Source: Halanaerobium kushneri (lineage in GTDB: Bacteria; Bacillota; Halanaerobiia; Halanaerobiales; Halanaerobiaceae). Taken from it: DNA of 64,000 bases. How positions within the stretch are numbered: the first letter of the stretch is position 1; every line of letters begins with the position of its first letter. The DNA is taken from the NCBI RefSeq assembly GCF_900156285.1, contig NZ_FTNC01000006.1, forward strand, positions 1 to 64,000, written 5' to 3'. The notes under the pieces are model-generated. The model ran no database searches. It saw only the letters and a program-made list of their open reading frames with translations, and was not told where the DNA came from. The position numbers and the translations under genes are program-made. This document shows positions 50,206-52,535 of the stretch, piece by piece.

Positions 50206-51360
50206 TTATCGTATGTTTTCAGCTGATTTAATCTTTTGCTTTTCCTTATACATAGCATTATCAGCTTCATTTATCAGTTGTTCTAAATCTTTTTGATAAT
50301 CAGGACTGTATTCAGCTGCTCCATGACTGGCGGAAATTTTATAGTCTTTTTTATTAGCTTCTGTAGCTCGCCTAAATTCTTTTCTAATTCGCAGCCAAAT
50401 CTTTTCAGCCTCTATTTGATTACTATGAGGTAAAACAAGTAAAAATTCATCTCCACCCAGTCTGACTACTCTATCATTTCTCCGAAGAGAGTGCTGTAAA
50501 ATATCGCTAATTTTTTGCAGCAGTTCATCTCCTTCCTGATGACCAAAATTATCATTAACCAGCTTAAGATCATTAACATCAATAAAAATAATAGAAAGAC
50601 TGTCCTGATTTTCTTCAGCCTTGTCCATTTCTTCTGCTTTTTTAACTTCAGCTGCAGTTATATCTAAATCCTGTTCATTATTATCTTCAATAAATATCTT
50701 GAAAATATCTGTACACTCTTTTCCTTTTGCTTGGGAAAGTGTCCAGCCAAGCATATCTTCAGCTTTCGAATTTAAATAAACAATAAGGTCATCCTGATCA
50801 GCAGTTATCACTCCTTCTGCTATGCTAGCAAGTGTAACACGATATTTTTCTTTTTCTGCTTTTAAAAGCAGATTTTGTTTGTTTAGTTTGCGCTGAAGAT
50901 TTACTAATTCATTATTTAACCTGCTCATTTCATTATAAATTTGATCTTCAGATAAAAGCATTCCCTGATCAATCTTTTCCTTTAAATTTCGTCTCAAATT
51001 ATTTACATAATTATTATTGATCCGCATTAATTCTTCATAATATTTAATAATCCCTTCAGATTGATTGGCAGCAATTAAAATACTACTGCTGTCAAGATTA
51101 TTTAAAACTATCAAAATATATGATTCTGATTTTTCGCCCAGTTTAAGATTAATTTCTCTGCCAAAAACAACCTCTTTCTTTTTAACTTCCTTTAAAAGAG
51201 AAAAATATTTTTTAAGACTACCCTGGTCTACATATCTGCTGAAATTTTCATTTTCTAAATTTAGCGAGTTATTTAAAGAATTGAAAAGGACTTCCTGAAC
51301 CTGACTGTCCTGATCAATTTTTATAATAAAACCTAAATTCTGCTGGTTTTTACTTATCAT
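50206..51360 (-). CDS. Diguanylate cyclase with truncated PAS domain
   Basis: 384 residues, soluble. Poorly recognised N-terminal domain 1-110, coiled coil about 110-172, PAS half 173-225 (TLASIAEGVITADQDD ... NSKAEDMLGW), an acidic joint 226-252, then the GGDEF domain 253-380. Active site LGGDEF (302-306) and inhibitory I-site RRND (293-296) are intact, so it should make cyclic-di-GMP. Missing are the second half of the PAS fold and the D-x-LTGLxNR start of GGDEF, as if deleted in frame. ATG overlaps the stop of the B12-sensor gene (ATGA), so the two are coupled. Confidence 0.9.
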   Translation of the reverse strand: MISKNQQNLGFIIKIDQDSQVQEVLFNSLNNSLNLENENFSRYVDQGSLKKYFSLLKEVKKKEVVFGREINLKLGEKSESYILIVLNNLDSSSILIAANQSEGIIKYYEELMRINNNYVNNLRRNLKEKIDQGMLLSEDQIYNEMSRLNNELVNLQRKLNKQNLLLKAEKEKYRVTLASIAEGVITADQDDLIVYLNSKAEDMLGWTLSQAKGKECTDIFKIFIEDNNEQDLDITAAEVKKAEEMDKAEENQDSLSIIFIDVNDLKLVNDNFGHQEGDELLQKISDILQHSLRRNDRVVRLGGDEFLLVLPHSNQIEAEKIWLRIRKEFRRATEANKKDYKISASHGAAEYSPDYQKDLEQLINEADNAMYKEKQKIKSAENIR

Positions 51361-52406
51361 AATAACGAATCAGCCACCTTTACTGCTTCTTTTGCATCAG
51401 CGGCAAAAGCATCTGCTCCAATTTTTTGCCACAAATTGTTGTTTTCTAAAAACACTCTTCCACCAACAATAATTTTTAAACCTGACAATTTAGTATTTTC
51501 ATTAATTTTAGTTATTAAATCCTGTGCTAACTCCAACTTATCTGGCAGAGTGAGCGAAATAGCAAGTAAATCAATTTCTTTTTCTACTAGCAGCTTTAAA
51601 ATTTCAGCAGGAGGAGTGTTTGAACCAAGATGAATTGTATCCCAACCGGCTAATTCTAAAAGATCGGCTACCATTCTAACTCCCAGCTCATGTAACTCAT
51701 CTCCAATACAGCCAGTTAAAACTTTTTTCCCTTTCTTATAGGAAGAAAAAATTTTAGGATATAATTGTGCCATTGCCAGCTGAGTTACAGAAGTCGCATA
51801 ATGTTCCTGAGCTATACTTATCTGATTTAGCTGCCAGAGACGTCCAATTTCATACTGTACTTGTTGAAAAATATTTAAATAAATATCGTCTACTGCAGTT
51901 CCCTGATCAACCAAATCAAGAATTAGTTTAACTGCTCTTTCTCTTTCCATATTAATTATAAAATTAAGATAAATTTTTGCTTTTTCCTGCAAATAATTAT
52001 TTTCATTGATGAAAGATTGATAATGATTCTCAGGATTTTGAATCTCCTTCTCAGCAGAATTTAAATAATTTTTAATTAAATTAAAATCTTTTTGCGTAAA
52101 TTCAGAATATAAAACATTTTTTATTGCCTTTAGGTGTTTCTTAAGAACTTCAATTCCAATCCCCCGCTCTTTTAAAACCGTATAAAGCCAGCTGTAGTAA
52201 TTAACAAAAATGTTTTTTTCACCAACAGCTAAAGCTTGAGCCAGATAATTTAAATTAGAAGAGGTATCACTTCTAACTTTCTCCATCATATTTGAATTAT
52301 ACCTGTTCATTTCTTGAGGTAACAAAAACTCCTGCTCATCCATAATTTTATTTATTAGATCATCTCTATTATCTAAAATATATTTTTTGATTTTTGTCCC
52401 GGTCAT
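51357..52406 (-). CDS. CarH-like cobalamin-binding sensor without DNA-binding domain
   Basis: 349 residues. 1-140: helical domain with no MerR HTH. 150-225: B12 cap four-helix bundle with W191, then exactly nine residues, then E201-H202, the W-x9-EH signature of adenosylcobalamin photoreceptors. 226-349: Rossmann B12-binding domain with GDELHELG (235-242), where H239 is the expected lower cobalt ligand, and KIIVGGRVF near 325. The residue after W191 is Gln, where Thermus CarH has the His that binds cobalt after light, by recollection. Coupled to the diguanylate cyclase, so likely its input sensor. Confidence 0.88.
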   Translation of the reverse strand: MTGTKIKKYILDNRDDLINKIMDEQEFLLPQEMNRYNSNMMEKVRSDTSSNLNYLAQALAVGEKNIFVNYYSWLYTVLKERGIGIEVLKKHLKAIKNVLYSEFTQKDFNLIKNYLNSAEKEIQNPENHYQSFINENNYLQEKAKIYLNFIINMERERAVKLILDLVDQGTAVDDIYLNIFQQVQYEIGRLWQLNQISIAQEHYATSVTQLAMAQLYPKIFSSYKKGKKVLTGCIGDELHELGVRMVADLLELAGWDTIHLGSNTPPAEILKLLVEKEIDLLAISLTLPDKLELAQDLITKINENTKLSGLKIIVGGRVFLENNNLWQKIGADAFAADAKEAVKVADSLL

Positions 52407-52474
52407 AAGGACACCTCATTTCTTCTACTAGTATATATATTAAACATTTGAGCCTTATTTCCTTCTATATAAAA

Positions 52475-52505
52475 CAAAAAAGAACCCTTATATAATCAGG
52501 TTCTT
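52475..52505 (-). terminator. Terminator of ssrA
   Basis: Minus-strand stem AAGAACC / GGTTCTT with loop TGATTATATAAG, followed by TTTTTTG, about 30 bases after the tmRNA 3' end. Confidence 0.85.
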
Positions 52506-52535
52506 GAATCAAAAATATTAAATTTAGTTATTATT

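Follow-up and report, generated by a model that had tools for sequence, protein, structure and literature searches.

A photocobilin cyclase controlled by light has already been published (PMC10979010). In this protein, AbDPcob, the output is a diguanylate cyclase that is activated more than 10-fold by light, and a standalone photocobilin also works in trans, as separately added photocobilin domains alter the activity of the cyclase AbDGC (PMC10979010). SasPcob (8J2W/8J2X) and AbPcob/AbDPcob (8J2Y) combine a photoglobin with an adenosylcobalamin (AdoCbl) domain carrying the motifs W-x9-EH and ExH, and among photocobilins the AdoCbl domain stands at the N- or the C-terminus, depending on the group (PMC10979010). 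Globin-B12 units tied to signal-transduction domains are also attributed to Schneider et al. (2022; doi 10.1016/j.csbj.2021.12.022) in PMC10151467. CarH/LitR photoreceptors (5C8A-5C8F) likewise contain a B12 cap and Rossmann fold with W-x9-EH and an axial His. In diguanylate cyclases regulated by LOV or phytochrome domains, the light sensor drives the GGDEF domain through a coiled coil that ends at DxLT, the wide turn by which the catalytic domain is attached (PMC8041772).

Here, we describe a related gene pair from the salt-loving anaerobe Halanaerobium kushneri, located in a window of 64,000 nucleotides. Both genes, and all their features given below, lie on the minus strand. The first encodes a sensor of 349 aa (51357..52406) with a predicted photoglobin followed by B12-binding domains, and the second a partner of 384 aa (50206..51360) with a PAS-like adaptor, a coiled coil, a truncated PAS domain and a GGDEF domain. 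As described earlier from the sequence alone, the sensor stop overlaps the partner start, in a 4-nt ATGA (51357..51360). The pair thus resembles AbDPcob in having a diguanylate cyclase as output, and the proteins of Schneider et al. in tying a globin-B12 unit to signal transduction. In contrast to SasPcob and AbPcob, the globin comes first, the output, together with an adaptor, is encoded by a second gene that overlaps the first, the cyclase is shortened, and no bilin-making enzyme (PF01126, PF03992) was detected in the genome. Unlike in the LOV and phytochrome cyclases, the sensor is a separate protein and the cyclase lacks DxLT.

The pair is followed by an MscS gene, 33 nt beyond the partner gene, and further by a DUF503 gene. 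A possible coupling to this channel had been suggested, but MscS accompanies the pair solely inside the genus, and the functional link was dropped. Directly upstream of the sensor gene lies a tmRNA gene (RF00023; 52536-52892), and a terminator-like hairpin is found between the two, near 52470-52510. No riboswitches were found at Rfam thresholds within the 64-kb window, the tmRNA and tRNAs being the sole matches that reached them. Among named relatives, Halanaerobium sp. 5-U2 is closest (97% over the sensor), followed by H. saccharolyticum strains.

Fold and conserved residues of the sensor

Pfam detected both B12 domains (PF02607 and PF02310) in the sensor, and residues 137-349 (51360..51998) form a helical B12 cap and a Rossmann B12-binding domain. 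In a phmmer comparison with solved proteins, SasPcob (E 2.4e-27) and AbPcob (5e-25) were the best matches, ahead of CarH (8e-6). An AlphaFold2 model was built from 13 relatives (mean pLDDT 89) and compared with known structures using VIA-align. Residues 137-349 aligned with SasPcob (8j2w) with a Z of 26.3 and 1.8 Å over 208 residues, and residues 1-126 (52029..52406) with allophycocyanin (9i1r; Z 17.6, 1.9 Å over 124 residues) and with biliverdin-bound smURFP (6fzn; Z 17.3). The fold-search listings are dominated by one domain, and the absence of other families from them carries no meaning. A second, weak phmmer stretch aligned sensor residues 33-99 to the SasPcob globin.

The sequence-only reading had described a CarH-like sensor coupled to a cyclase, with an unrelated helical domain in place of the MerR DNA-binding domain. 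The coupling is backed by motif, fold and gene pairing, but photocobilins are closer to the sensor than CarH. The MerR domain is indeed absent; together with the lack of a second His beside the Trp, this led us to reject membership of CarH, from which the additional globin is a further difference. The helical domain itself is not unrelated, but a phycobiliprotein-like photoglobin that forms part of the known photocobilin architecture. Because this N-terminal domain fits phycobiliprotein-like globins, and in the predicted structure shares one chain with the B12 domain, the sensor is, as modelled, a photocobilin-type protein with its two domains in reversed order. This order alone is not new, since the AdoCbl domain has already been reported at either end (PMC10979010).

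The open reading frame at 51357-52406 contains the previously noted adenosyl-pocket signature W191-x9-E201-H202 (within GRLW191; 51801..51836) and the sequence GDELHELG (51681..51704) with H239, the presumed lower axial cobalt ligand. Among 89 full-length globin-B12 relatives, W73, G188, W191, E201, H202, H239 and G261 are invariant, the E237-x-H239 motif is invariant or nearly so, and P265 is retained in 88. W-x9-EH was absent from the MetH and MtaC-like B12 proteins encoded in the same genomes. Because of this invariance, and the lack of W-x9-EH in these other B12 proteins, the signature residues are, judging from the alignments, not there by chance. Light-responsive domains have W-x9-EH as their signature (PMC11796333), and the SignatureFinder motifs for such cobalamin-binding domains are largely present: GxxW (GRLW), EH and GxxxP (GSNTP) were found, but not GxxH, as the sensor reads DELH, with D236 for the Gly and a Gly one residue earlier (GDELH). 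A Gly occupies position 236 in 53 of the 89 relatives and is missing in the other 36.

In the globin, D47 and W73 correspond in the weak alignment to Asp270 and Trp296 of SasPcob (numbering offset of 6 residues, anchored by W191 and Trp61). Asp270 is the main biliverdin contact of SasPcob and Trp296 touches both corrin and bilin; AbPcob itself has a His at the Asp position (PMC10979010), and the alignment likewise places residue 47 opposite an AbPcob His. D47 is retained in 79 of the 89 full-length relatives, and eight of the ten exceptions are Halanaerobiales proteins paired with cyclases. A second, divergent Halanaerobiales sensor group (L044, L045, L046, L047, L048, L051 and L052) has Asn or Leu instead of the bilin-contact Asp, and its GGDEF partners are short, about 316 aa.

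The residue following the signature Trp is Q192 (conserved in 70/89), at the place of CarH His132, so that the bis-His arrangement of CarH is not available. The earlier remark that the photochemistry may differ for this reason was apt: SasPcob also has a Gln after the Trp (PMC11796333), and its light state is a water/hydroxide-ligated cobalamin (PMC10979010).

A probable two-gene module with exchangeable outputs

The two-gene layout, for which a homologue search had been proposed, recurs in several families of Halanaerobiales and in many phyla. The relatives, found with one pattern and therefore a biased sample, were examined for the best 80 of 391, which include Chloroflexota, Paenibacillus, Bacteroidota, Spirochaetota and Lokiarchaeota. 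In these 80, the following gene mostly overlaps or nearly abuts the sensor gene, often with overlaps of 1-4 nt. Of 61 partners scanned, including that of the window, 53 are histidine kinases, with HATPase_c, and 7 contain GGDEF. At least four changes between kinase and cyclase are needed on the sensor tree, several forks of which are weakly supported. A Pfam analysis of 113 neighbours of the relatives revealed no consistent light-related flanking genes, and the 25 commonest neighbour families are mainly response regulators and unrelated genes. Two Lokiarchaeota MAG contigs (L067 and L089) carry a globin-B12 sensor beside a histidine kinase.

Some B12-domain relatives of about 300 aa (L050:6883-7779, L049:7577-8506 and L054:7456-8400) have an N-terminus that resembles an XRE-type helix-turn-helix, which in L050 reads LKKLRKEKKLRQKDLAEELDLAQTTIANYEK. 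The L050 protein retains W-x9-EH and is a possible B12 photoreceptor repressor without MerR.

Residues 1-181 of the partner (50818..51360) constitute an adaptor common to the histidine-kinase partners of other phyla: an HMM made from the N-termini of 28 such kinases matched residues 3-181 of the window cyclase with an E of 1e-32 (Z set to 1000). In the model, the strands and helices of residues 10-98 succeed one another in PAS-like fashion, and long helices follow. The coiled-coil motif LNNELVNLQR (residues 148-157) falls in this region, and its LNNELxNxxREL version is retained even where the cyclases are short, in the second Halanaerobiales group. As kinase and cyclase partners share this PAS-like/coiled-coil adaptor, the outputs are, on comparative grounds, exchangeable. 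The adaptor is also the best candidate for the contact site of the sensor, a putative contact suggested by the order of the genes and by this sharing of the adaptor.

The sequence-only reading had assigned intact active and inhibitory sites to the cyclase. The GGDEF motif (residues 302-306; 50443-50457) and the RxxD inhibitory site, RRND (50473-50484), are present, as are the conserved base-binding and metal-binding residues N269, D278 and D261. The domain core (residues 242-377; 50230..50637) matches PF00990 from profile position 20 on, and about 87 residues are missing compared to the 470-aa cyclases of sister genomes. This in-frame deletion of about 258 bp, with its junction at 50631..50641, extends from the latter half of the PAS domain to the DxLTxxxNRR start of GGDEF, removing both the wide turn and the NRR helix. 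The D, L, T and N of this motif are retained in all 16 aligned relatives; the contig of the 97% relative (L035) ends short of the deletion site. In the model, the remaining core still adopts the GGDEF fold from residue 241 on and matches PleD 305-446, and in residues 220-242, around the join, pLDDT drops to about 32. This deletion probably impairs the cyclase of the genome. One PilZ protein is encoded in the genome, and cyclic-di-GMP could therefore be read there.

Supply of cobalamin and bilin

The genome encodes a PduO-type adenosyltransferase (PF01923), and no match to CobA or CobS was found in it, so that the organism probably salvages its B12. None of the 38 genomes of the order contained a heme oxygenase (PF01126), this genome included, which makes the use of a bilin unlikely here, and PF03992 had no match in this genome either. 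Among 50 genomes of other sensor carriers, many of them drafts, PF01126 was found in only 8.

In 23 of the best 80 of 391 relatives, an IsdG/HmuQ-like gene of about 99 aa is situated directly upstream of the sensor gene, its position ranging from 105 nt within that gene to about 60 nt before its start (e.g., L057:3652-3948, L088:3676-3972 and L065:3693-3986, and about 20 more). These ABM-fold proteins, 21 of which score above 100 bits, are related to the heme-degrading HmuQ, MhuD and IsdI, and all 23 accompanying sensors have the bilin-contact Asp. The upstream gene may supply the bilin. In the alignment of the upstream proteins, a Ser stands at the catalytic position, which we take to be that of the IsdG-type Asn, and their heme-degrading activity is therefore uncertain.

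Proposed signalling and state of the locus

We consider it reasonably probable that the two genes form a split photocobilin signalling pair in which light switches the output, and that the window cyclase has probably lost this control or is impaired in it. In the dark, AdoCbl held between W191/E201/H202 and H239 would keep the sensor in a single assembly state. On exposure to green light the Co-C bond would break, the adenosyl group would depart, and a water/hydroxide-ligated cobalamin would form, Q192 being unable to provide the bis-His state of CarH. The altered sensor surface could then act on the adaptor and coiled coil of the partner and so switch the output enzyme, presumably a histidine kinase in most lineages and a diguanylate cyclase in Halanaerobiales. 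The light response of the sensor is itself inferred. The sensor of this genome has the look of an intact protein, but the cyclase lacks the DxLT...NRR segment that joins coiled coil and GGDEF; for that reason, light control of cyclic-di-GMP is probably lost or impaired here, whereas in sister species such control is likely to operate.

The locus might also be a decaying remnant without present function, an explanation that is compatible with the split-photocobilin reading for the family and that we regard as a real possibility, held with some doubt. Besides the loss of DxLT...NRR, a stop interrupts the sensor at codon 123 in sister genome G019, which is 97% identical, and the copies in the Halanaerobium genomes G015 and G017 are broken. 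Breakage of the pair in several relatives may also indicate that any signal can be dispensed with. The share of nonsynonymous changes between the window and G019 is raised in the sensor (10 nonsynonymous to 3 synonymous, compared to 14 to 50 in three neighbours; Fisher p 0.0003), but these numbers are low, and G019, being a draft MAG, may contain sequence errors. Both reading frames in the window are open, and dN/dS over longer distances is 0.08-0.25, which argues against a mere remnant. Given the missing DxLT...NRR of the cyclase and the broken loci of several sister genomes, we read these sequences as probable decay of the pathway in some members of the genus, this genome included.

It is rather unlikely that the sensor reports AdoCbl, and hence B12 status, with the loaded and empty forms setting partner activity and photolysis being incidental. 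The apparent salvage of B12 would make its supply variable, light sensing would be of little gain to anaerobes in dark brines, and the activity of AbDPcob differs between its apo and AdoCbl-bound dark forms (PMC10979010). Against this stand the invariance across phyla of W-x9-EH, a light-responsive signature (PMC11796333), and the retention of W73 and D47 in the globin. A redox or oxygen sensor, in which photolysis or the oxidation state of cobalamin signals oxygen, would suit Halanaerobium, an anaerobic lineage. Monomerisation of TtCarH after light is effective only with oxygen (PMC11796333), but these residues are equally conserved in aerobic members of the family (Paenibacillus, Bacteroidota), and we consider this explanation very improbable. 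Membership in a methyltransferase system as its corrinoid protein, hinted at by weak matches to the NCBIfam MtgC/MtbC models, was rejected as extremely improbable, given scores far below the cut-off (54.7 versus 370 bits), the absence of a linked methyltransferase gene, relatives that are paired with kinases or cyclases and not methyltransferases, and the lack of W-x9-EH in the MtaC-like proteins of the order.

The interest of the split photocobilin pair lies in the wider two-gene module with exchangeable output, part of which Schneider et al. (2022) may describe. Tentatively, and with less confidence than for the pair itself, we propose that this module is widespread, that one conserved adaptor allows kinase and cyclase outputs to replace each other, that an upstream IsdG/HmuQ-like enzyme supplies the bilin in many operons outside Halanaerobiales, and that the anoxic Halanaerobiales operate on B12 alone. 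If true, photocobilins would no longer be a handful of studied proteins but a modular light switch of two genes, found in many phyla and in Lokiarchaeota, and such switches would extend to strict anaerobes without heme oxygenase. What occupies the bilin pocket, and how a single B12 sensor drives either kinase or cyclase by way of one adaptor, would become testable questions, and for optogenetics the pair would offer a natural split-protein design.
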